Shown: in pieces, positions 12,962 to 31,099 of the stretch | Position numbering within the stretch: the stretch's first letter is position 1 | Layout: every line of letters starts with the position of its first letter | Notes under the pieces: model-generated | Told to the model about the DNA's origin: nothing | The model's database searches: none | What the model saw: only the letters and a program-made list of their open reading frames with translations | Source: Cylindrobasidium torrendii FP15055 ss-10 | Lineage: Eukaryota; Basidiomycota; Agaricomycetes; Agaricales; Physalacriaceae | DNA length: 31,379 nucleotides | Direction: 5' to 3' | Assembly: GCA_000934385.1 (NCBI GenBank) | Contig: KN880701.1 | Coordinates: 1-31,379 of the forward strand | Program-made: the position numbers and the translations under genes

Positions 12962-13871
12962 GATGCAAGTAGAGGTATGATGAAGATTGGATGTGGGGGT
13001 TTGAGGAGACGACTTGCGCGGAGCGCCGTCCTTTATGTTGAAGTGCGCCAAGATGTGGAGACAGTCTGCTACATCATAGAGGATAGAGGTAGCGCGCCAT
13101 CGTTTCAGCAGACCGACCAGACCGTGTTTACTGTCAAGTTCATACAATACGCTCCGCATTGCGATGGGCTCGTGTACCAAGTTGCCCCACCACTAGACGT
13201 TACAAGTTAAAACTCGAGGTCATTGCCGTACGCAAGTAAAGCTCATAGTCCCATGCTCCATAATACAGCTCACCCCTCCTTGTTTCTCGGCAGCTGGTAC
13301 TTAGATTGTGGAGGTCAGTTCGAGTACCGTTTCCCGCCTTGCATCAGGGGAGCCCATTGGCGTGCGACGATTCGGAAGCCGGTGGGAAAAGCCATTCTTC
13401 GGGGCGCAGAGACCTGTACTTCACTAAGTAGTCGAAGCGCTTCTGAGGGCAGCGAAGGGAATACTGAGTGATAAGCTTTCTCGATCCCGTCGGCAAGGTG
13501 GGAAAGGGGTATGAAAGCCAGAGCTGGAATTGGTATAGCAACTTCGAGAACAAGTATTGAACGCGCAGTAAAAGGGCGGGCAACCGTGGCCAATCCGTCG
13601 CGACGAGTGAGAGATAGATATCTTGATTCTACATACCGGGCGATGTCATCAAATTCATTCGACCCAGAAAGTTACAGGCACCTCCAGGGACTCCTGTGCA
13701 CTGCGTATACCGGATTGCTCAGACAACCCGACAACCGGACGCAGCTTGAGGTAGGCTTGAGGTCTGATCATGGCGCGGTAAAAAGTCAATAAGTGAAGCA
13801 GATATAAATTGGCAATAGCAGCCATCCTCCCGAGTCCCAGTGCGTTATATTATACATATGAAAGGGTATGA
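12962..13871. other. Intergenic region, no supported gene
   Basis: These 910 bp lie between the start of DUF6593-like paralogue 2 and the end of the Sel1 gene (both minus strand). Overlapping open frames of 80-90 codons occur on both strands around 13223-13790, with none showing a domain, splice partner or clear composition advantage. A short real gene with unusual splicing cannot be excluded; I see no other structure. Confidence 0.4.
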
Positions 13872-15561
13872 TTATTGGAATTTTTCCTTGTAAATCCATG
13901 CCAGGCCAACGTCGCTGACGCCTTGCTTGACCTAGAGGGCGTTTAGTACCACCACCACATGATATGCGGACAAGATAGAAACTGACCGCCATCCGATACC
14001 ACTTCGCAGCCTCCTTCCTATCCTTTTTGCATCCTTTGCCATTCGCTAAACAAAACCCAAGGTCGTTCTGTGCATCCGGGTCCCCGAGCTTCGCTGCTGT
14101 CGTGTAGTAGCTCACAGCCATCTTCTGGTCCTTCGCGACACCCCAGCCTTGAAAGAAACACTGGCCGACCTCATAGATAGCCAAGACGAGCTCTCCACGC
14201 ACGCCTTCCTTGCTCCCGACCGGTCCTTTCTCTAGGTCGGCCACTGCAAGCTCTGCGGCTTTTCTGAGCCATGCAAACCCAGACTTTTCGTCCTTCTTGC
14301 ACCCCCAGCCATGCCGTAGACTGAGGCCCCACATGAGCATTCCAACCCCGCAGCCACCGTTCATGGTCGCGCTCTTCTCAAAACACACGGCCGCCTCCTC
14401 CAGCCGATTGGCTTCGTGGTGTGTGATGCCCTGCTGCAAGAAATCATTCACCATTGATGGATCCGTCGACGAGGCCTGTTCATTTTGGAGAGAGCGCGAC
14501 GACGCAGCCGCGCCTGGCTGGAGATATTGAGTATTCTGGAACTGATTCCGCCGTGGCGAGGGTGTGTGTGCAAATTGACTCCCGATGGGTGAGGGACTGG
14601 CGCTGTCGTACTGATAGTAAGAATAGTCGGAATACACACTCGTCGGAGAGCCTGTCCGGACTGAAGGAGGCTTGCGGGGCAGATGGACGTCTTCCGGTCG
14701 TTCTGGGGGTGGTCGAGACATGGATGCGGGTGATGGAGACCGATGAGTTGAGCGGTCAGAGAAATACTGGTCCTGGCGGTAGCCGGACTGAGGCGATGAA
14801 GGCGACGGCGAGCGCATTGAACCAGATGACGAATCGTTCCGCGCATTGCGCTGCAGAACAACAAGCTTTCGGCGTTCCATGTCCTCGTCCGACACCAGCG
14901 GCCTCACTGGCCGTGAGTAGTTGTTGGTGAGCGGTTTGACGATGGCTGTCTTGCCTACACCGACAGAGGAATGTTGCTGGTCCGGGAATTCATACATGGG
15001 CTCGGAGATGACCACCATCGGCACAGGGGAGTCTGGGGAAGCAGGGGGTTGGCCCATTTTCTGGGCGACGTACGAATCTGGATGTGCACGCGCCGTGGAC
15101 CACGAATCCCGGAGCGCTGGGGCCGACGTCGTGTTGGTAGAGTACATGCTGTCTCTGTCTGTGTATCCATAGGCTGAGAATCCGTCACGTTGTGGGGAGA
15201 GATTGCCCGCGTCAAAGTCAATGTACGATGCATCGTCGCGTTCCGAGGCTGTTGCGACCGAGCTGCGCGAGAAATGACTGTGCAAAAGTGGGGAGGATGG
15301 CGCCAAATTGTGTCCTCGACCGCGCTGTTGTGGAGGCGGTTGCTGTGGCCGTGGTGGAGTAGCGAGATGATCTCGAGAGTTCGGAACGTAGTCCTGCTGT
15401 ACTGGATAGGTGTACCCATGGTTCAACTCGTTTGCCGCTGGAACATCCACATTCCGCGGTGGTGCCCGGCGCGATGAAGTGCGTCTGACAAGCGTTTCCA
15501 GCGGCGAATTCTTCTGATATCCAAACGAACTGGGAGTTTGCGAGTAGTTGGCTGCCATCAT
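13872..15561 (-). CDS. Sel1-repeat protein, Skt5/Dsf2-like
   Basis: Probable regulatory scaffold. Sel1-repeat proteins of this layout include Skt5/Chs4 activators of chitin synthase and Dsf2-type proteins, so a role in cell-wall or septum regulation is inferred. Two exons, 15561-13987 and 13931-13872, flank a 55-bp intron (GTCAGT..CTCTAG) and give 544 residues. Residues 1 to about 370 are low-complexity, rich in Ser, Pro, Tyr and Gln with many SP sites, likely disordered and phosphorylated. About 375-540 hold at least three Sel1 units: EEAAVCFEKSATMNGGCG with WGLSLRHGWGCKKDEKSG; YEVGQCFFQGWGVAKDQKMA; and NDLGFCLANGKGCKKDRKEA. Splicing replaces a nonsense tail with AAKWYRMAVKQGVSDVG and ends in LAWIYKEKFQ, the expected family ending. 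No CAAX box as in yeast Skt5, so a Dsf2-like or other Sel1 subfamily is at least as likely. Confidence 0.82.
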
Positions 15562-15822
15562 GTTCGCGGAAAGAGATTAGACTGGGACTTTGTTAGGTTA
15601 TTTGGCGGTCAATAGTATTTTCATTACATTCGAAATGGCCGGAGTCGCCTTCGCCGTCGAGGTCACTGATCAAGGGAGCATAAGCGTCGCCAAGCGATCA
15701 CTCGACCTTTACACGGCTACCGGCCATCATTGATCGGAAGCAGTAGTGGCCGTATATGAACCTCTGAAAGGAATGCCACTCACTTGGCTACCTCCTACCA
15801 CCCATCCTATTAGATTACAAAA
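15562..15822. promoter_or_regulatory. Divergent promoter of the Sel1 and F-box genes
   Basis: A 261-bp interval between two divergent starts. It contains the imperfect palindrome CCGGCCATCATTGATCGG-like stretch near 15720 and a GTCACTGATC motif near 15661; their function is unknown. No TATA box is obvious. Confidence 0.35.
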
Positions 15823-17094: not shown

Positions 17095-17712
17095 TTATGT
17101 TGCGAACGCTTTCAAGTCTGCTAGAACTGTCCGTGTCGCCTCGACAATGACTTCCCACTCAGCCGCATGCAGACGCGTCTCGAAGGACTCGAGCGTGTCT
17201 CCTTCTTGGAATGGAACCTCCCGCACGAGTACTGGCGCGCCACGGTCGACCTCTTTCACGACTCGATGCACCATACACCCCGAACGCGTCGTCTCTCCCT
17301 TCTTCCACGCCTCAAACGCCCGTTCGATTGAGTGTGTTCCATCAAATTCGCCTGGGAGTGCAGGATGAAGGTTGATGACGGGTACGCCTTTGAGCAGGTC
17401 CAGGAAGCTTTCGCCGAGGACGTGCATCCATCCAGCGAGCACCACAACGTCCGGCTTTGCTTCCAAGACCAATTTCGCGATTTCGGCATCATAATCCGAC
17501 CTCGTGTGTCCTGGGAGTGATTTCAGGTAAGGCTGCAAGGCGAGGTATGCCGTAGGGATGGGTGGGCTGCAGGATCGTGCACGTTCGAGTCCATACGCTG
17601 CTTTTCGGTTGGAGAGGACGAGACATATGGATGCATCGGAGAAATTGGCGTCTATGAGCGCTTGAAGATTAGTTCCAGAGCCGGATATGAGCACGACGAT
17701 GCGTTTGGACAT
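17095..17712 (-). CDS. ADE8: Phosphoribosylglycinamide formyltransferase (ADE8-type)
   Basis: GAR transformylase: transfers the formyl group of 10-formyltetrahydrofolate to glycinamide ribonucleotide, third step of de novo purine synthesis, cytosolic. Intronless, 205 residues, the usual length of a monofunctional PurN/Ade8 enzyme. Start is the first ATG (MSKRIVVLISGSGTNLQALI), where SGSGTNLQAL is the GAR-binding loop. AGWMHVLGESFLDLL precedes the catalytic NLHPALPGEFDG with N114 and H116. D156 in KEVDRGAPVLVREVPF completes the Asn/His/Asp catalytic set, and VHRVVKEVDRGAP is the family signature. In fungi the activity is separate from the bifunctional GARS/AIRS protein, which fits this stand-alone gene. 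The frame is open upstream to about 17871 but holds no other ATG. Confidence 0.95.
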   Translation of the reverse strand: MSKRIVVLISGSGTNLQALIDANFSDASICLVLSNRKAAYGLERARSCSPPIPTAYLALQPYLKSLPGHTRSDYDAEIAKLVLEAKPDVVVLAGWMHVLGESFLDLLKGVPVINLHPALPGEFDGTHSIERAFEAWKKGETTRSGCMVHRVVKEVDRGAPVLVREVPFQEGDTLESFETRLHAAEWEVIVEATRTVLADLKAFAT

Positions 17713-18018
17713 TTTCGGTGATGATGGTTTTGTGCTCAAATCTTGATCGTTACTTCGGTCCGCGGATGCCACGGTCACGCTTGTATGATTTTGATCGACG
17801 AGCCGGTTCCCTCGAGGACTACAGCATTTTCTTAGTATTCCTAGGCCGGAGACATCCGCACTGACAAACAATTATTTTACGCCGTTTGTTCACAGCTCGG
17901 CCAACTTCACTGAGCCATATCAGCACTTTGCCGCCCCGCCTCTGCCTTCAATCCCGCTGGTTTGACACAGTCCTAAACAGCGGAGGGCCAGCCATCACCA
18001 TCATCATTGTCCGGACCG
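17713..18018. other. Promoter region of ADE8 and 3' side of the HNH gene
   Basis: These 306 bp lie between two minus-strand genes. A plus-strand open frame (17886-18233) overlaps the HNH gene's last exon and is taken as a shadow. I saw no TGACTC (Gcn4/Bas1-like) site. Confidence 0.4.
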
Positions 18019-19059: not shown

Positions 19060-22000
19060 ATGTCCTACGAGCCTGGTCAACAGACGGGCTTTGCGGCGGA
19101 GCCTGGGAACGACGCCCATTACTTCGATTATGTCAGCATCCTTGCATCTCATCCCACCGTACACCAGAATCCGCCAGAGCAAGCACCAGAATGCAGCGTA
19201 CGCAACTGCCAAGAATTGTCCGAGCCCCCCAACAAAATGTGCGCCGGCTGCCGTGAAAAGCATCGGAAATACGCAACGACGAAGAGGGCGCGACGGAAGC
19301 AGGAAAAGGCAGCCGCAAGTGGGCTTGAGTTTGACGCAGGAAGTCCATCCAACGCATATATGCCCAAGGAACCGGCCGAGGTGCGTATGCAACCCTCTCT
19401 GAAGATTTTCTCTAAGCATCACATAGCCATATGCAAACGCTTCATACAACTTGGCATCCGTTTCCCGACCATTTGCCCAACCAGATCCATGGGCAGGTGC
19501 TATCGACCCGCGACTAACGAGCAGCGAACTGGCCGGCGCACTCACTCCCTTGCCCACGATTTTCCCTACAGGGAATGTCCATCATCACAATCTCCAACCA
19601 TTCGCGGAGCCACTGTTGCCGCCGCCGCCGCCGCCTCCGGCAGCGGTACCACCACCTACGAAACGCCCACGACTTTCCTTACCGCCTAATACAGAGGAGG
19701 CTGGCCCATCCGGCTCTGCGGCGCGGTACTGTTCTGTGAAAGGATGTCATATCATACTCGCTGCCCAATACCCCTTCAAGATGTGCGAACCATGTCGAAA
19801 TCGGTATCGCGAGTACGGCATCACCAAACGGCGCAAATGGAAGGAAGACCGCGTTGCATACGAGCACGAACTGGAGGGCTTGCTTGCGCAGGAGGAAGAA
19901 CGCAGACAAGCAGAAGGATTGCCACCACTCGCTGACTCTCCCGATGAGTTTTTACAATGGCAGCAGTCTGTCGTTAACGAAAAGGTTGATACCGAAGGCT
20001 CACTCGGTGGCCGTTTATCCTCCATACCTGTGGATACCGGCCGCGTTAATTCGCAGGTCATCAGCAGTTCTCTCAACGCGCCGCATATGTGCACTGTCTC
20101 TCATTGCCATAAAGTCTTGCCTGCGACGTATAGATACAAACGCTGCGAACAACATCGATACCAGAATCGGCACCACAGTCAATTGAAGCGTGTCCGTGAG
20201 AAAGAGGTCAAGATCGCTGGGCCCCCAGAGGGCGCTATTGGGGAGATGTTTGGCTTGCGGCTCTCTGCGACGCCGCCACCAGACAACCAAGATGAGCAGT
20301 CAATGGAACCAGAGACTCCCGGACCGTCACCAGCGAAGAGGACCGCCTCGGGGTCCGCAAAGGTGCTTCCATTATAAACCAAATATTCTGTGCAAGTACT
20401 CAGACTGTTCACAGCGTCCAAAGAGCCGGACCAGTCACTGCTCTCAAGATGATTGCCAGAATTTGGTTGCACCAGACACCAGATGGCGCATGTGCGACAT
20501 ATGCCGCAGGCAGCGACGGGCAGAAGCAGCGGAAAGGCGTGCCGAGGATGAAAAGGAGATTGAGGAGGCGCGCGACGAACACTCACCGCCGTTGCGCCAG
20601 GTCGTTATCACCGAGGCGACAAGGGCTCATGTTAGCAATCGTGAGCCCACACCTGACTCTACGCTGCAGCAAGAGGAATCGCCGAGCGTTTCCCTCAAGC
20701 GCAAGGCTCCTCCAGATGATGCAGAAGCCGAGGAAGAAGACACTCAGCCCGAGCAAGTACCATCACCAGCTGCTGCTCCTCCATCGGCTTCTCCGCCGCC
20801 GCCTCCCCACGAAGACGACTATGTTATAGGACGGGATCCCTCTATAGAGCCTATACCAGAACCACCTCCAGAGCCTCTACCAGAGCCACCTCCAGAGCCT
20901 ATACCAGAGCCACCTGCAGAGCCTGCACCAACCACTCCGCCTGTTAAGCCTCCTCCGTCGCATAAACCTGGAGCAACCCAAGAGGCAGCCCCAGCTGCAT
21001 CAACAGAGCGGTTTACAGCACCAGCCCAGCCTCCTGCGCCCAATCCATACGCACATCTCATCCCGTCATCTCCATTCACGGCGCCATTGTCGACTGGGTA
21101 TTACCCATATCCCTACGGCTACCCGTACTACATGCCTCCAATGGGGTTTTATCCCCCATATATGGCGACGCCGACAACAAGCGCTCCTGGCGCGCCTCTT
21201 CCTGTCGATCCAAATCATCCTGTGCCAGGACAGCCTCCCGCACCGATCCCAACGACAGCATACCCATTTCCGTACGGCTATTATCCACATTATGGATATG
21301 GGGGGTATCCGTATCCGTATGCGCCCCCGAAAACGTTCCCGCCCTTACCACCGCCACCCCCGCCGCCGCCAAGGCAGGTTAGGAGCAGCAGCAAGAAAAA
21401 TTATGATGAGACGAGTGTCGATGTGCAGAAACGACCGGGTAGTCAACAAAGCGAACGACCGTTTGAGAAGGCACAACCGCCCCCGCCTATTCCTTCGCAG
21501 GCATGTCAGGCTTCTGCAAAACCATCCGAAGCTCCCTCTGTCGCGCTGCAGGCTTCTTCAGCATCGTCTCAGGTCCCCCCTGCGGAGCAGCCTGTAGTGG
21601 CGCAGGCTCCTTCAGTTCCGCCTCAGGGTATTCCACCTCCGTCGCAGGCCGATTCTTCGCAAGTATTGAGTCCCTCTCCCGCATCAGCGCTCCCTCAAGG
21701 TTCAGCTCCTCCACAAGCGCCAGTTTCTTCTCAAGCATCGGGGCCAACCCAACCGCTGCCACCATTCTCCCATGACGGGACCCATGCTGCTGTACTTCAG
21801 ACAGTGACTGCAGCGTCAACAATGCCATCGCCCGTTCCGATAGCCCAACCCCAAGCCAACCCGACGGTTCCACTACCGGCATTCCCATCAGTGCCACTCG
21901 GAGCTACGGGCCTGCGGCTGCCCCAGCCACCTCCTGTCGAGTTCAGGCATTCGTTGTACTCCACATTTGGGAGTACGGAGGGAGGGCAAGGGATTCCACC

Positions 22001-22640
22001 GCCGCTACCACCGCCAGAGTTCGATGCGTTAGTGAATGGGCCGTTGAAGGTGAAGTCGTTCATTGCGTATAATCCAGAGGTATGCTGTGTCACGTTTCGC
22101 TATAGTGTGAGTGATGCTGATGAGAGGATGGTTTAGCAGGCGCGGAATGCGGGCAAGAAGAAGCCGAGGTATTATATGTCGGTGGACGAGGAGGAGGCGT
22201 TGCATCATCTCCAGGGTGCGAACGCCGCGGGCGCGGGTGCGACGAGTGCTGCATCGTCTAGTAGTAGTACAATACCGAATGGTGTACCTTCGAGCACGCC
22301 GCCGCCTCCTGCGCCTGTTTTGGCGGGTGTCAAACCAAGCACGGCTTTCGGGGACAGAAAGAACATGGCCGTCGAAGGAGAAGACGGGATGGATGTTGAT
22401 GAAGAGACGAGAGCTTCTCCACCTATGGTTCGCAACATCTCTCCTTCACATATTCCGTTTGACTTATGTGTGCAGGTCACACGGGTATGCTGCACGCCCA
22501 AGTGTACCAAGATGATACCGGCGGAAGTGGTGGGGACCGTGTGTGAGAAGTGCAAGGCGAAGATGCGGAAAATACGGCAGACTGTGAAGAGGAGGGGGCA
22601 TTTGGAGCCGAAGGGATTGATTCAGGCGAAGACGCTGTAA
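19060..22640 (+). CDS. Five-module Cys-rich (zinc-binding-like) Pro-rich protein
   Basis: Not a family I can name. Exons 19060-19380, 19427-20362, 20415-22079 and 22137-22640 join in phase 0 throughout to give 1141 residues; a further in-frame 48-bp intron (22428-22475) would leave 1125. Five modules share C-x4-C-x(10,12)-C-x2-[CH] followed by an Arg/Lys-rich helix. Their first Cys residues are at 45, 209, 329, 428 and 1092 (DNA 19192, 19730, 20090, 20439, 22488). Examples are CSVKGC..KMCEPC then GITKRRKWKED, and CTVSHC..KRCEQH. Between modules 4 and 5 lies about 600 residues rich in Pro, Ala, Tyr and Gln, with octapeptide repeats, poly-Pro and Tyr/Pro/Gly stretches (YPYGYPYYMPPMGFYPPYM). Four paired Cys/His suggest one zinc per module; the basic helices suggest nucleic-acid binding and nuclear location. 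A transcription or chromatin scaffold is inference only. The acceptor at 20396 is an alternative to 20414. Confidence 0.8.
20850..20930 (+). repeat. 24-nt tandem repeat encoding a Pro/Glu octapeptide
   Basis: About 3.3 copies of a 24-nt unit of the form CCTATACCAGAGCCACCTCC plus AGAG, encoding P-[IL]-P-E-P-P-P-E. It lies inside exon 3 of the Cys-rich module gene. Copies differ at a few third positions and at one P-to-A change, which suggests slippage-driven expansion in coding sequence. Confidence 0.8.
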
Positions 22641-23006: not shown

Positions 23007-24869
23007 TTATACTATTGCCTCGTATTGGACAACCCCGGTGCGCTGGACGGATGGCAACACCTCATCAGTATCCTCGCCATACTGCGTGTCATGCTGTCCT
23101 ACACAGACCCAAATCCCCTCAGCCTTCCAGCTCCTCAGCCGGGCCAAGAGTGTCGACTCCCTAAACGGTGGCTTGTATGGACTAGGACCATCTGGTGACG
23201 TGAGATACTTATTCATTGCCGCGCCCCGTCTACTTTCGAACATAACCACCAATCTCCTCAAACGCGGTCCGGCTACCTTGTGAACGCACACCTCCAAAAA
23301 CCGCTCGATAACAATGTCCGCGTCCTTTTTATACGGTGCAGCTAGACTGTGGAAATCTGCTTTGTAGCGCAGGTTGAGAGTTTCGAGACTCGGGAACACG
23401 TTGGGTCGCGTAAGAGTCGACAGAGTTTCCAAGTCTTCTTGGTCACTCACGCGAAGGGTGAGTGTCCTCAGGCCGGCGAGAAGAGGAAGCAGAGCGTCCC
23501 AATCACTATCGCTAGGGCACTGCTTCCTGCTATAGTAGTTGTCGATGACCAAGTCAAGGCTTTCCAGCGCACATCCAGATAGTACGAGCGTGTTATGAAG
23601 CCTTCTAATGCGGATACCCTGTCGTCCTGTATTGATGACATGACGAAGAGCAGGGCATTTTAGATGCGATGATACCTTTTCAGCGCCGTCTAGCCGCAGC
23701 GTGTGCAGATTTGGTAGGAAGATGGGCCTCCTGATGGTCGCCGAGTCTGAGACACGGCAGCTACGGAGATCGAGCTCAGTGATAGAGGCACAGTGTCGCA
23801 AGAGGCGTGCCGTGCAGCGTAGGCTACCTGTCTGAAGAGTTAAGGTCTTGAGCTCTGTGAGGGGGAAACCTAAACTGTCGATCTGGAGATGGATGTCGGA
23901 CGCCCGAAGTACGTTGTCGTCTATGTCCAGAAGAAGCTCAAGCTCCTGCAGGGGAGGACACGATTGAATGATAGCCAGGAGCCTGTCCCAATACACGGTG
24001 TTGGGTACATCGTCCGGAAGTCGCACTGCGTCAATTTCATCGATGCTCATTGTCAGCGAGAGCTTGCGCAGATTTGGAAAGTCGTTATTATTTTCTGCGC
24101 CCTCGTAAACCCTGTATCTGCCTGGATGACCACGAAGGTACAGATTTTCCACGCGAGGAAAGAAATCGCCGAGACCAGAGAGGCAGTCGTTCGGGTCCTT
24201 GGAGTCCAGGTCAACATCCAGTGTGAGAGGTTCATTCTTTGCTCTTGTCAACGTCGTCGTAATCCGATTCGGTCTTCCCCGCGTGTCAAGTCCAAGCTCC
24301 ATTTCGTGCGAGCTCCGAAGCTTGAACGAGGGTCCAGTCCAAAGACGTGAGAAGTCGCATCCAACTTGACGCCATCGACGACAAACAGCGATGATATTCC
24401 ATGGCGCACTGCGTTCAGAAAGATGCTTGCGTCCGTACAAGCTATAGCGTCCTCCTGGACGTAGGCAGGCCAGGAAAATCTGGCACAGAACCTCATTTGG
24501 AAGATCGTGGGCGCGGCAGAGAAGGCCCTGGTGTGCATAAAGAAAGATTTCGGCTTCCTGGCGCTGGTTCCTGAGCCTCTGAGCAGCGGCCTCTATCGCT
24601 TTGATTTCGTTGTCGATGGTTTGTATGTCGGCTGATATGTCGCCAATGAATGTGGACAAACGAGAGTGAGCATCGTGCGGTACTTGGTCATATTGGGAAA
24701 ACGTGGTTCCGAGGTATTGGGAAAACGGGGATGGTCGCTGTGACAATCTCGTTGGTTCGCTTGCCGGGAGGTGGCAGCGAGGGCAGTAAATGTCTGGAAG
24801 ACGGAGTCAGCGGCTAATAAAGATACTTGTTAATACGTTACCTTTTTGGACAATATCCATAGCACTCAT
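23007..24869 (-). CDS. F-box/LRR-like protein, tandem paralogue A
   Basis: Putative SCF ubiquitin-ligase adaptor. A 28-nt first exon (24869-24842, MSAMDIVQK), a 48-bp intron (GTAACG..TTCCAG, CTGAC branch) and a large second exon (24793-23007) give 604 residues. In order: an N-terminal C-x2-C knuckle, YCPRCHLPASEPTR (residues 12-25); a coiled-coil helix with IDNEIKAIEAAAQRLRNQRQ (about 69-88); an F-box, LPNEVLCQIFLACLRPGGR, then WNIIAVCRRWRQVGCD (about 105-155); then leucine-rich segments (LREL-like, e.g. PPLQELELLLDID, LPNLHTLRLDGAE, FPSLETLNLRY). The last part, SWKAEGIWVCVGQ, ends in VVQYEAIV, shared with copies B and C. The layout is typical of expanded Agaricomycete F-box families; substrate unknown. 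Transcribed in the same direction as the MYND gene and both sister copies. Confidence 0.85.
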
Positions 24870-24889
24870 TCTTATAATGAAAGTGCGAG

Positions 24890-24961
24890 TTGGTGGTACA
24901 AGGACAAGTGCAGCGCCCGATCGATTGGCATGTCACCAGCAACGTGACTGAAGGCCTGACC
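24890..24961. promoter_or_regulatory. Conserved upstream block, F-box paralogue A
   Basis: Upstream of paralogue A, the plus strand reads CCGATCGA, then TGTCACCAGCAACGTGACTG (24931-24950). AACGTGAC starts at 24941, 72 bp from the ATG at 24869. The same elements in the same order occur upstream of paralogues B and C. By strand, the element in gene orientation is GTCACGTT. Confidence 0.45.
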
Positions 24962-25133
24962 TAAATACTTAAGTAACATGCAATATGCTGCAATATGTAT
25001 GCGCTCCAGTAATAGGATGTCCAAAGTGGCTGTCCTTATCATCTCATCCGAATTAAGTACCTCAAATAAGAGTTTGTCAATTATTGCATTATCCATGAGT
25101 ACATACTAGTGAAGGAATTTCGAGGCGCTAGTA

Positions 25134-26783
25134 CTACGTCTTTGTAACCTTCTCGCGCTGTATCTTCTGCACTTTGTGCGTGCCCTCCATAAACAGTCTA
25201 AATATTTTCCTACTTACTTCCCCTGTTGGCTCCGACCTTGCCAACATCCTCCATGTCACTATCCTCAGCTCCGAGTCTATAATGTCCTCCGCCTCTTTCG
25301 CCGTCAAGCGCTCGATGCTCCTGTTCAAAATAGCCTCCTGGTCTGACTCTGTGGTCTTGAATTTCTTCCAATCGACCCCAAGCTTCTTGTTGACTGTCGA
25401 GAAGAGGCGACACATTGGCTTGTGCGAAATTTCCGGATGCTTCCAAGCGGCATGCTGACACTCTTGAGAGCAGTAACGCACGACATGGCAAGCACTGCAC
25501 GACTGCAGCTTGCGGTCCAGAGTGGCTGACGACACAGAGCAATTCGGTGCGGCGCATCCACCGAAGACGGTCAAATTATGCATCTTTTCACAGGCGTCCT
25601 TTATCAACAAGCTGGGGTCTGCTTGATATTGCTCGAACGGATTATAGAGCTCCGTCCTGATGCGCGGTGACAGAGGTGGCCATTCTTCGTCCAAGTCCAA
25701 TCCAAAAATGGCGTTTGGGGAATTACAAGATTCGTAGAAGAAACTTCCGATGATAGCCAGCCTCTCTGCTTGTTCGTCGTAACTATCCTTGAAGATGTCC
25801 ATACAGAGCGCACGAGAAGCGAAAAGAACAGCATCCTCGCTGATACGGTCCTCAGGTAGGTGCCATGCGCTAAACACACTCATATCACCGCCCTGGCTGA
25901 GCACGAGCCGAACCTCGTTCATGAATTCAGTGAGCAAGTCAAACTTCCCGAGATACCTGCGAAGTCGATGATTTGCATCCAATGTGCGGTTGGCGTGGTC
26001 AACCAATTGCCTTGCCCAGCTCGGGACGCGCGCAAGTGCCGGCATCATAGTCGATGAGGACATCCTCGTCAAAGAGTACAGAAGAAAGAGGGGATTATAT
26101 GCATCGGGGAAATGATTGAAGATCGTCCAAAGCATGTAGGCAAGAATAAGAGGATTACCCCCGAAAACGTCGGCATACTTCATCGGCCAAATGGCACGCC
26201 CAGTTGCCTTGAGCGACTTGTCTGACGACTTGACCAACTTTTCGATAGTCGGCCATGGGCTCGTGAAACCAACTTCCTTCTTATCCATCAAGCCGCGGTG
26301 AGCGATTGAGCAGATGCTTTCGAACAGTTGTTCGCTCGCCTCGGACGCAGTCGATGGCCGGCGCTGGGCTACATCGTGTACCCACCAGTTACTATCCTTT
26401 GGACACTTGCACACTGGCTGCGCGATGGTTGCAACATTCGTGTCACTTCTGAAATGCGACAGAAATCGTATAGCAGTGGCAAATATGTCTGGATTCATAC
26501 GGCGAAGCTCCTCGGCGCACTCTGAGTGCGAGGTGAACACCTTTTCGACACCAGCATAAAAGACAGAGCATCGGGTAGGGTGATCCGGGTTCGAGAGCGA
26601 GTCGATAAAAGCCGCGATGGTGCTGGGATGCGGAATGGGCACGATCTTGCCATTGATGTTGACAAGGGTGGGCATCTTGGAATCCTGAGATCCTCGAACC
26701 AGGATGAATTTTGCTATTTGGAACAGTGTAGTCAGTACAACGAAGAAACGGATTGCGATTCACTTACAAGATTGTTGCGACAT
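25134..26783 (-). CDS. MYND-type zinc-finger protein
   Basis: Function unknown; MYND fingers bind proline-rich partners, often in transcriptional or methyltransferase proteins. A 16-nt first exon (26783-26768, MSQQS), a 54-bp intron (GTAAGT..AATAG) and a large exon (26713-25134) give 531 residues. Without the first exon the frame would start at an internal ATG (26675); splicing adds SKFILVRGSQDSK. Most of the protein is a helical region with WPTIEKLVKSSDKSLKATG, YMLWTIFNHFPDAYNPLFLL and SAWHLPEDRISEDAV. The MYND finger lies near the C-terminus (about 392-440): CAAPNC, then CSACHVVRYCSQECQHAAW and HKPMC, with the full Cys/His set. This C-terminal finger after a long helical domain is a common Agaricomycete architecture. 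No SET domain is visible. It interrupts the F-box tandem array but shares its strand. Confidence 0.85.
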
Positions 26784-27052
26784 GATCATAGGACAGGTGG
26801 TGATGGTCACTGGTAGTGGTTGATCATGCATGATACGCTCTCTTTGCTTACGTCATCCCATCACGGACGTTGCCGGACTCGCCTATTTAGGTCGTTCGAG
26901 GCGTTCTTTGTTCTTTAGTCTTTGGCTTGTAATCCGCTCAAAGGATTATTGATTGCACACTTCAAGATGGATCCTCTTGCACGCGCGACTTGGGTCATAT
27001 TGGTATTTCATTAATGGATTGTAAGATGATTCAAATTAAAAATGTGCACGTC

Positions 27053-28939
27053 TTATACTATCGCCTCATACTGGACCACCCCGGTGCGCCAATCAGATGA
27101 CACTACCACTCCAGTGTTGTCTTCTCTGGATCCAAGGTCATTGTGTCTCTCGAACTGGCCTACACACACCCACACACCCTCGGCTTTCCAGCTCTTCAGT
27201 CGCTGCAAGAGGGTAGACTGCCTCGATGGTGGCCTGATTTGCCCGCCAAGAGCAACCTCTTTGGCTTCCATCAAGGCTTTCAGCTCCGCATCATCCGGCA
27301 TGCTCTCGAACATGACCACCAATCTATTCAAGCGCGATCCGTCTTCCCTGTGAACGCACACCTCCAGAAAGCGTTCTATAATGATGTCTGCGCCATCCTC
27401 GTCTTCCACAAGATCGTCAAAGTTTTCCGTGTAACGCAGGTTGAGAGTTTCGAGACGCGGGAACACATTCGGACGAGTAAGCCTCGACAGATCGTCCAGG
27501 TCTTCCCGGACACCCATGCGAAGCGTCAGAGTCTTCAGGCTGGCGAGCAGAGGCAGCAATGCATCCCATTCGCTATCGCTGGCGCTGTTCATCCTGAGAA
27601 AGTGATTGTTGATGATCAAGTCCAAGCTTTCCAGTGCACATCCGGATGCCGCAAGTAGATCATGAATCCTTTGGATGCGGATGCCCCGCCATCCTGTATT
27701 GATGATATGGCGAAGAGCAGGGCACTTCAGATGCGATGACACCGTGTCGGCGGCATCTAGTCGCAGCGTATGGAGGTTTGGCAAGAGGATGGGTTGCCCA
27801 ATAGTTGTCGAGTCTGTGATGAAGGAGCTGCGAAGCTCGAGCTCAGTGAGGGAGAGATGGCAGTGTCGCAAGAGGCGCGCTGTGCAGCGGAGGCTGCCCA
27901 TTTGAAGGGTCAAGGTCTTGATCTCTTTGAGGGAAAAGTTCAAGTTGTCCATCCGAAGATGGATGTTGGACGAGTGCAGGTCATCTTCGGCCACGTTCAG
28001 GAGCAGCTCAAGCTCCTGCAGAGGGGGGGAGGATTCAATGATAGCCAGTAGCCTGTCCCAATGCACCGTGCTGGATACGTTGTCCGGAAGTCGGTCGGCG
28101 TCAGTGTCACTGATTTTTGCCGTGACCGAAAGCTTGCGCAATATGGGAAAGTCACTCTCGTACTCCGCATCCTCGTAAATCTTGTACCTCCCCGGGTGAC
28201 CACGAAGATACAGAGTTTCCACGCGAGGGAAAAAATCGCCGACATTGGAGAGGTAATCGAGCGGGTTTTGACAGTCCAAGTCAACGTCGAGCGTGAGAGG
28301 TTCCTTCTTTGCTCTTTTCAGTGCCGTTGTTATGCGGTTCGGGGTACCCCATGGTGTCAGTTCGAATGCCAACTCGTTTGAACTCCGGAGCTTGAAAGAG
28401 GGTCCAGTCCAAAGACGGGGGAGGTCACATCCAATTTGACGCCACCGGCGGCAAACGGCAATGATGTTCCACGGCGCACTGCGCTCGGAGAGATGCTTGA
28501 GTCCGTACAAGCTGTAGCGTCCGCCTGGCCGTAGGCAGGCCAAGAAGATGTGGCACAGAACCTCATTTGGGAGATCGTGGATGCGGCAGAGAAGGCCCTT
28601 GTGTGCGTAGAGGAAGTTTTCAGCCTCCCGGCGCTGGTCCTTAAGCCTCTGGGTAGCGGCCTCCATTGCTTTGATTTCCTCGTCGATGGCTTGTATGTCG
28701 GTTGAGATGTCCCCAATGAACGCGGACAAGCGGGAGTGAGCATCGTGCGGGACTTGGGCGCATTGAGAGAGCGGGGTTCCAAGATATTGCGCAAATGGAG
28801 ATGGCTGCTGTGACACTCGCGTTGGTTCGCTCGCTGGGAGATGGCAACGAGGACAGCAAGTGTCTAATAGATAGGTTCAGTAGCTGCACAGAGCAACCAT
28901 AAATCTCGTACCATTTGTGTCAATATCCATAGCACTCAT
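27053..28939 (-). CDS. F-box/LRR-like protein, tandem paralogue B
   Basis: Second copy of the array. First exon of 28 nt (28939-28912, MSAMDIDTN), 48-bp intron (GTACGA..TATTAG) and second exon 28863-27053; 612 residues. Same order as paralogue A: C-x2-C knuckle TCCPRCHLPASEPTR, coiled coil (IDEEIKAMEAATQRLKDQRR), F-box LPNEVLCHIFLACLRPGGR, WNIIAVCRRWRQIGCDLPRL, then leucine-rich segments including PPLQELELLLNVAEDD and FPRLETLNLRYTENF. It ends in SWKAEGVWVCVGQ and VVQYEAIV. Identity to A and C is high along the whole length, with divergence concentrated in the leucine-rich loops and in the variable stretch just before the end. No disabling change was seen, so all three look intact. Confidence 0.85.
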
Positions 28940-28959
28940 TTTTCGACGAAAGCGCAAGT

Positions 28960-29058
28960 TACTGGAACGAAGGCAAGCGCAGAGCAATGCCCGATCAATG
29001 CGTGTCACCAACCACGTGAACGTGACCCTGGCCATCAATCCACCCCAATTGGGATGAA
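28960..29058. promoter_or_regulatory. Conserved upstream block, F-box paralogue B
   Basis: Contains CCGATCAA, GTGTCACCAACCACGTGAAC, AACGTGACC (29019-29027, 80 bp from the ATG at 28939), CTGGCCATCAAT and ATTGGGATGAAG. A CACGTG E-box occurs at 29013-29018. Order and spacing match the block upstream of paralogue C closely. Confidence 0.5.
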
Positions 29059-29189
29059 GTGGGTGTAAGTAAGTACGCTCAAGGCTTGTCGCATATAAGC
29101 TACATTGTTAATTTCAACTTCATAACTCTGTGCTCGAGGTTTTCATATTTGGTGCAAACAAAAGGCATATGTAGTAATAATCACAGAAA

Positions 29190-31099
29190 TCATACCAACG
29201 CCTCGTATTGTACTACCCCGGTGTTTAAATCAGGCAATACTACTATCTCATTGAAATCTTCTCCTGGACGAAAGTGCCTCTGTCTTGTGAACTGGCCTAC
29301 ACAAACCCACACACCTTCAGCTTTCCACCCCCTCAGGCGCTGCAAGAGTGTGGACTCCCTTGACGGCGGCGGAATTCTTTCACCAATCTCTCCGCCCTCT
29401 GCAATAAAGGCCCTCATCGCCGCATGCTCCGGAAAGTCCTCGAACATAACAACCAGTCTGCGCAAACGCGATCCATCCTGCTTGTGGACGCACGCCTCCA
29501 AAAACCGCTCAACAATGAGGTCTGCGTCCCCATGATTTGTTGCGGTGAGATCCTCGAAGATATGCGAGTAACGAAGGTTGAGAGTTTCGAGGCTCGGAAA
29601 CACGTTGGCGTGCGTGAACGACGACAAGACGCCGATGTCATCCCAGTTATGCAAGTGAAGCGTAAGCGTCTTGAGGCCAGTGAGAATAGGGGGCAAAACA
29701 TCCCATTTGCTTTCGCTGGGGAGCTTCACCATGCCATAGTTGTTGATGGATAACTCTAGGCTTTCGAGCACGCAGCCGGATCGTACGAGTAGATCATGGA
29801 TTCCTTGGGCGGTCCTGCTTGTCCATCCTTCACTATTGACATGGCGAAGGGCAGGACATTTCAGCTGCTCCAACACCTGTGAGGCATTGTCTAGCTGCAG
29901 CGTGTGGAGATTTGGCAAGAGGATGGTTTCGCTGACGGTCTCCCACTCCGGAAGGGAGCTCCCGGTCCATAGGTTGAGCTTGGTGACAGAGGCGCATTGT
30001 CCCAAGAGAAGCGCCGTACAGCGAAGGCTACCCGTCTCAAGAGTCAACGTCTTGAGCTCTTCGAAGACTAGATGCACGTTTTCCATATCGAGATGAATAT
30101 CGGGCGCCCATTGGATGCGGTTGTCTACGTCCAGTAGGAGTTCGAGTTCCTGCAGAGGGGGGCACGATTGGACAATACCCAGGAGGATGTCCCAATGCAC
30201 GGTGTTGGCCACGTCGTCTGGAAGTCGGTCTACATTTGTCTCGTTGAATTTCGCTGTCAACGAGAGCTTGCGCAAGTTTGGAAAGATATTCTTGGATTCC
30301 ACATCTTCGAATGCCAAAATCTCGCCAGTCTCGTACCTCACTGGGTGGCCACGAAGATAGAGAGTTTCCACGCGAGGGAACAGGTCACTGAGTCCGGAGA
30401 GGTAATGATGGGGTTCTTTGCAATCCAGGTCGACATCCAGTGTGAGAGGTTCATTCTTTGCTCTTGTCAACGCCGTCGTCAATCGATTTGGTTTGCCATC
30501 CCACGAGTCCAGTCGAAGCTTCATTTCGTCTGAGCTCCGGAGTTTGAACGAGGGTCCAGTCCAAAGATGGGGGAGGTCGCATCCAACTTGACGCCAGCGA
30601 CGACAAACAGCAATGATATTCCATGGCGCACTGCGCTCGGAGAGGTCCTTGCGTCCGTACAAGTCGTAGCGTCCGCCTGGGCGGAGGCAGCCCAAGAAGA
30701 TCTTACACAGAACCTCGTTTGGAAGATCGTGGGCGCGGCAGAGTAGGCCTTTATGTGCGTCGAGGAAGACTTCGGCCTCCCGGCGCTGGTCCTTGAGCCT
30801 CTGGGTAGCAGCCTCCATTGCTTTGATTTCCTTGTCGATGGCTTGTATGTCGGTTGAGATCTCCCCAATGAACGCGGACAAGCGGGAGTGAGCATCGTGC
30901 GGGAGTTGAGCGCATTGGGAGAATGTAGTGCCGAGGTACTGAGCAAAGGGGGATGGCTGCTGTGACAATCTTGTCGGCTCGCTTGTTGTGAGCTGGCACC
31001 GCGGACAGCAAGCATCTGGTACACAAAGTAATCAGGCCGGTAGCTGGCAATAGCACCTAGAGGTAACTCACCATCTCGGTCAATATCCATATCGCTCAT
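29190..31099 (-). CDS. F-box/LRR-like protein, tandem paralogue C
   Basis: Third copy. First exon of 28 nt (31099-31072, MSDMDIDRD), 56-bp intron (GTGAGT..TACCAG) and second exon 31015-29190; 617 residues. N-terminal knuckle ACCPRCQLTTSEPTR, coiled coil (IDKEIKAMEAATQRLKDQRR), F-box LPNEVLCKIFLGCLRPGGR, WNIIAVCRRWRQVGCDLPHL, leucine-rich segments such as PPLQELELLLDVD and FPSLETLNLRYSHIF, ending SWKAEGVWVCVGQ and VVQYEALV. The intron of this copy is 8 bp longer than in A and B, but its position and phase are the same. Compared with A and B it has an insertion near 30290-30340 (EILAFEDVESKN). All three genes are transcribed leftward. Confidence 0.85.

Follow-up and report, generated by a model that had tools for sequence, protein, structure and literature searches.

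Among small zinc fingers, the RanBP2-type finger has the spacing C-x2/4-C-x10-C-x2-C, and the GATA finger (PF00320) has C-x2-C-x17/19-C-x2-C. Two other described fingers come closer to the locus considered here. As given in one publication, the A20 finger (zf-A20, PF01754) has the spacing CX2-4CX11CX2C, and the expanded AN1 finger of sweetpotato relatives has CX4CX12CX2CX4CX2HX5HXC (PMC9570247). Here we describe a gene, CYLTODRAFT_493965, on the plus strand of a 31,379-nucleotide stretch of DNA (the window) from Cylindrobasidium torrendii FP15055 ss-10, which a taxonomy look-up places in the Agaricales, Physalacriaceae. The predicted protein carries five modules of the form C-x4-C-x(10-12)-C-x2-[CH], each followed by a basic helix. 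Small zinc fingers that carry a basic helix are a known kind of unit; judged by the libraries and papers searched, the family and its five-headed architecture look new.

Five modules in one protein

The gene product, which a protein search returned as P0001, has 1125 residues and bears the database title 'hypothetical protein CYLTODRAFT_493965, partial'. The earlier note on this DNA, made from the letters alone, had described five Cys-rich modules, and all five are present: the pattern C-x4-C-x(10-12)-C-x2-[CH] matches the spliced protein five times, against a maximum of one match in any of 20,000 shuffles. Four modules lie within the first 475 residues and the fifth at the end of a disordered stretch of about 600 residues. 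The features, with the evidence for each, are as follows.

19192..19323, plus strand: module M1, C-x4-C-x10-C-x2-C and helix, first Cys at 19192, residues 45-88 (pattern, AlphaFold2)
19502..19543, plus strand: short motif IDPRLTSSELAGAL between M1 and M2 (IDPRL..SELAGAL), residues 133-146 (alignment), absent from the earlier note
19730..19915, plus strand: module M2, C-x4-C-x12-C-x2-C and long helix, first Cys at 19730, residues 209-270 (pattern, AlphaFold2)
19940..19993, plus strand: second helix behind M2, residues 279-296 (AlphaFold2)
20090..20215, plus strand: module M3, C-x4-C-x12-C-x2-H and helix, first Cys at 20090, residues 329-370 (profile, AlphaFold2)
20439..20579, plus strand: module M4, C-x4-C-x12-C-x2-C and helix, first Cys at 20439, residues 428-474 (pattern, AlphaFold2)
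20595..22424, plus strand, split by the intron 22080-22136: disordered Pro/Ala/Ser-rich region, residues 480-1070 (AlphaFold2, composition)
21123-21140, plus strand: PYYMPP patch inside the disordered region (pattern)
22488..22595, plus strand: module M5, C-x4-C-x12-C-x2-C and basic helix near the C-terminus, first Cys at 22488, residues 1076-1111 (pattern, AlphaFold2)

The modules are conserved, keep one order and resemble one another in profile. Among 39 relatives, mean identity to the window protein is 0.57, 0.66, 0.76, 0.47 and 0.35 in the cores of M1 to M5, compared with 0.22 and 0.12 in two linkers and 0.13 in the disordered region. In a FastTree tree of 113 short sequences (111 modules from 25 proteins and two from a second gene of the same genome, CYLTODRAFT_424464, described below), M1, M2, M3 and M5 each form an exact clade and M4 forms a clade together with one CYLTODRAFT_424464 module, with supports of 0.77-0.99. 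The proposal that the modules are selected units is therefore strongly supported, both by identities of 35-76% in the cores versus 12-22% outside and by the clades of the classes. When the class profiles were compared with one another, eight of the ten pairs gave 93-99.5% probability, M4-M5 gave 83.9% and M3-M5 gave 27.6%. The IDPRL..SELAGAL motif has seven invariant columns in a 40-row alignment (D134, L137, S140, L142, A143, A145 and L146), but when a strict text pattern is applied its core turns up in just 56 of the 130 family proteins (44 of the 106 that have at least 800 residues). It is perhaps a docking helix.

Distribution and architecture of the family

A protein search with residues 1-480 returned 84 proteins and a second with a 26-row alignment returned 117, 46 of them new, making a family of 130 with the query included. 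Both searches depend on 5-residue words that match exactly, and in each only the candidates with the most words in common were scored (7,991 and 7,982, respectively); among these no relative outside the Agaricomycetes was seen, which does not demonstrate absence. The organism names shown among the 130 proteins are all ones that we take to be Agaricomycetes. The five species that were looked up, including that of the window, belong to the Agaricales, Jaapiales, Corticiales, Gloeophyllales and Amylocorticiales, and other members presumably belong to the Polyporales, Russulales, Boletales or Atheliales. A search of viruses and prokaryotes with the M2 profile gave 28 and 13 stretches, respectively, that matched a pattern, none of which was confirmed. 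Comparison of the full-length model with a viral fold library gave no match at an expect value (E) of 0.001 or below among 30, a comparison of little power, as most of the model is disordered.

The class profiles used to call the modules derive from 56 proteins. The complete order M1-M2-M3-M4-M5 is found in 77 of the 130 proteins, and the order is broken in none. Shorter architectures, in many cases from protein fragments or incomplete gene models, comprise M1-M4 (20 proteins), M2-M4 (13), M2-M5 (8), M1-M2 (5) and M1-M3 (2). The M2 profile matched twice in five proteins, four with M1-M2-M2-M3-M4-M5 and one with M1-M2-M2, and this doubling may be a split hit. A few members carry other domains. 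Three Schizophyllum commune proteins of 1878-1971 residues (P0033, P0039 and P0058) have a MYND finger too according to precomputed Pfam results (in P0039 at 422-452), by fusion or by a gene-model join. The modules are accompanied by PF20151 in P0126 (Arthromyces) and by a ubiquitin-like domain in P0084 (Dentipellis), both perhaps gene-model fusions.

The second, diverged gene in the same genome, CYLTODRAFT_424464 (P0131, 854 residues), has four module-like repeats and lies on contig C165 (L009:2314-4841, minus strand of L009). It was found with a consensus-like M2 query (E 0.0048), and another part of it with an M4-like query (E 0.0054). Against the module profile two of its repeats score 28.3 and 21.7 bits and the other two only 6.3 and -1.4. 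The loops of the four are x11, x12, x12 and x14, the third being assigned by reading, and the C-terminal part differs from that of the window protein. A protein search with it returned only itself. With M3, M5 and two CYLTODRAFT_424464 modules as queries no third gene was found in the genome, and this gene count is a lower bound because the search scores only its best candidates.

Spacing, ligands and helix charge

Across the family the class profiles gave 579 module hits, of which 51 are without the pattern (12 M1, 24 M2, 3 M3, 4 M4 and 8 M5). The loop between the second and third ligands is x12 in 490 hits: 88 of 109 in M1, 98 of 135 in M2, 121 of 124 in M3, 118 of 122 in M4 and 65 of 89 in M5. 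Other lengths occur in 38 hits (9 M1, 13 M2 and 16 M5); x11 is found once and x10 twice, in one M5 and in the M1 of the window itself. The x10 spacing noticed earlier in M1 is thus present, but it is particular to C. torrendii, as the remaining M1 hits divide into the 88 with x12, eight with x17 and 12 without the pattern. M5 is the loosest class. In 11 of the 135 M2 hits the loop is x15 rather than x12; those named among the first 84 proteins are from Mycena (e.g., P0008, P0013 and P0014).

At the fourth ligand the pattern permits only Cys or His, and among hits with the pattern the classes divide between them: Cys in M1 (97/97), M2 (110/111) and M5 (81/81), His in M3 (121/121, with three further M3 hits lacking the pattern), and either in M4 (Cys in 102 and His in 16 of 118). 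The terminal His of M3 is accordingly a feature of the class and not a peculiarity of the window. Four Cys/His ligands are found in 528 of the 579 hits; as the pattern itself demands them, they are at most suggestive of zinc.

The residues that follow are conserved by position as well. Among hits with the pattern, Lys or Arg stands nearly always at +1, +5, +11, +12 and +14 after the fourth ligand in M1-M3, the exceptions in the other classes being +12 in M4 (30%) and +11 in M5; in every one of the 121 M3 hits with the pattern, +3, +4 and +5 are Q, N and R. The 20 residues past the fourth ligand have class mean net charges of +3.9 to +7.9, and helices are predicted in all five modules, in agreement with the strongly basic helix described after each.

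AlphaFold2 predicts M2 alone with a mean predicted local distance difference test score (pLDDT) of 90. In the full-length model all five modules consist of a knuckle or hairpin and a long helix that begins just past the third ligand and runs for 17-43 residues; mostly disorder is predicted in between, with pLDDT below 50 in 735 of the 1125 residues. The roughly 600 residues between M4 and M5 are likewise predicted to be disordered, as the earlier note had it, but its 'Pro/Tyr/Gln-rich' fits worse than Pro/Ala/Ser-rich with a Tyr-rich patch: residues 480-1070 contain 24% Pro, 12% Ala, 10% Ser and 5.6% Gln. A YYMP-type patch occurs in 34 of the 130 proteins by pattern.

Comparison with described families

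As far as tested, the module is undescribed. Nothing exceeded the Pfam cut-off in four exon pieces of the window or in P0001 and four other proteins. In eight relatives just two domains did so, both outside the modules: the MYND finger of a Schizophyllum protein and the ubiquitin-like domain of P0084. No match in 26 alignment members had an E below 0.014. An ArfGap match over M1 of P0001 (E 3.2) is far under the cut-off. The window exon pieces had no NCBIfam match; sequence searches of the PDB found nothing with the M2 profile, at E values up to 10, nor with P0001, at values up to 1; and no paper on the five-module family was found by spacing pattern, gene name or broader terms.

One described family, the plant AN1 form, does share exactly the spacing of its first four ligands, CX4CX12CX2C, with the modules. 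It continues with four more ligands (CX4CX2HX5HXC), which the modules lack: at +5 past the fourth ligand, where the next Cys of AN1 would stand, Lys or Arg is found in at least 95% of the M1-M5 hits with the pattern. The shared spacing therefore does not amount to AN1 membership, and AN1 had no match in the Pfam scans of window pieces, P0001 and relatives. The RanBP2-type finger had no Pfam match in the window pieces, P0001 and four others, and its x10 loop occurs in only 2 of 579 hits.

In GATA fingers, as in the modules, a helix begins with a CxxC. Three relatives (P0028, P0059 and P0069) are named 'GATA-type domain-containing protein' in UniRef, a loose naming. Pfam gives sub-threshold GATA matches in 3 of 8 relatives (E 0.12-0.4) and in 2 of 26 alignment members (best 0.24). 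The genome of C. torrendii has 18 GATA matches (22 candidates scored), none on the contig of the window; 12 of the matching loci were fetched and yielded, by pattern, 12 domains. Against these domains, the module profiles reached 0.2-5.9% probability, while one half of the GATA set against the other reached 99.1%; a comparison with just three GATA domains agreed (0.4 and 0.5%). The modules have a knuckle of x4 and a loop of x12, the 12 domains x2 and x17-19. Membership in the GATA family is ruled out by this controlled comparison and by the spacing, and we regard diverged GATA fingers as a very improbable origin of the modules.

A different likeness concerns the helix. Compared by eye, the M3 helix, QNRxHSxLKRxR, has an N/R spacing like that of the bZIP basic region, but two positions of the bZIP signature fail, a knuckle precedes the helix, and bZIP had no Pfam match in window pieces, P0001 and relatives. 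Two mushroom proteins were also considered. Ich1 of Coprinopsis is a nuclear protein of about the size of the window protein and is needed for the cap; it was rejected because papers describe it as an O-methyltransferase or methyltransferase. Snowball (snb1) is described as a seven-helix protein with DUF6533, so it lies outside the five-module family.

Proposed role and rival explanations

What do the modules bind, and why five of them? The reading that we favour, by a little more than an even chance, is that of a nuclear, multivalent regulator with treble-clef-like fingers whose helices lie most likely on DNA. Each finger would hold one zinc by its C-x4-C knuckle, a short beta hairpin and the C-x2-C/H at the helix start; the helix, extending 17-43 residues in the model and carrying many Lys and Arg, would lie on DNA. 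Four clustered heads and one on a long flexible tether could provide avidity and bridge separate sites, the Pro-rich disordered region and the IDPRL..SELAGAL motif could recruit partners, and the protein would act as a nuclear regulator of transcription or chromatin. The position-specific conservation on the basic helix suggests recognition of nucleic acid, and in a nuclear regulator DNA would be the more likely target. Zinc binding, nuclear location, DNA binding and regulation are all inferred. A bolder form of the idea, which we consider rather unlikely, is a new kind of head for reading DNA, in which the one-zinc knuckle acts as a cap that sets the orientation of one bZIP-like basic helix and lets it read DNA without a zipper. 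Five non-equivalent heads, each with its own conserved helix on one flexible chain, would then recognise a composite site or hold distant sites together, in a core regulator of Agaricomycetes.

Several points weigh against DNA as the target. The charge of the helices is not strongly one-sided (moment 0.07-0.16 per residue). Foldseek against solved structures gave eight matches, none significant at E <= 0.001, and these weak matches include five ribosomal chains, one zinc finger-RNA complex and one A20 finger with ubiquitin; since the contacts are with RNA or with protein, structure does not favour DNA. The zinc-bearing ribosomal chains 4v8p_AL, 9r9o_Sd and 7r81_e2 have a weak fold likeness to the modules, but the modules have no PDB sequence match and the fold E-value is not significant. 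The predicted second helix behind M2 may mean that M2 binds protein. An RNA-binding scaffold, with RNA as the ligand of the basic helices and with condensates or messenger ribonucleoprotein assembly driven by the disordered region, is a real rival, though on balance an unlikely one; a multivalent DNA or RNA scaffold, as the earlier note suggested, fits the anatomy of basic helices and disorder. Protein binding remains a lesser rival. One such reading, which we consider quite improbable, is that of A20-like fingers binding protein or ubiquitin, as an adaptor in ubiquitin signalling or chromatin. The modules share with A20 the C-x4-C, the dozen or so residues and the C-x2-C at a helix, and A20 ZF7 superposes on the module core with a root-mean-square deviation of 1.6 over 32 residues, a likeness in geometry only. 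The loop is x12 rather than x11, M3 has His as its fourth ligand, the long Lys/Arg-rich helix outruns the 33-residue A20 chain, and zf-A20 had no match in the Pfam scans of window pieces, P0001 and relatives. A zf-A20 search of the C. torrendii genome gave no match, but its controls were silent too, so it is uninformative.

If the favoured reading of a nuclear DNA-binding regulator holds, the family would be a conserved candidate regulator with an undescribed finger that can be tested directly in Coprinopsis or Schizophyllum. It is found in many Agaricomycetes, yet no entry matched in the libraries searched; as the modules have no Pfam match, lists of regulators built on Pfam matches would miss it. 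One study finds that, of the orthogroups specific to complex multicellularity, 172 are conserved and unannotated (PMC8893723).

Gene structure and neighbourhood

The gene has five exons and four introns.

19060..19380, plus strand: exon 1, start codon at 19060
19427..20362, plus strand: exon 2
20415..22079, plus strand: exon 3
22137..22427, plus strand: exon 4
22428..22475, plus strand: fourth intron, 48 bases, GT...AG, overlooked in the earlier note
22476..22640, plus strand: exon 5 including the stop codon

Joined, the five exons give P0001 letter for letter. The joins proposed previously at 19380/19427, 20362/20415 and 22079/22137 are in frame with GT...AG introns, but that three-intron model was one intron short, as P0001 was matched exactly only after 22428-22475 had been added. 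That the modules come from more than one transcript, or that their association is an artefact of exon joining, is extremely improbable: all five occur together in 77 of 130 proteins, although these relatives are likewise predicted proteins, and the public gene model of CYLTODRAFT_493965 has the identical join.

The neighbours upstream are ordinary, a formyl transferase open reading frame at 17098-17871 and a Sel1-repeat one at 13789-15576. Downstream, 23010-31031 holds four long minus-strand open reading frames, three F-box-like and one MYND.
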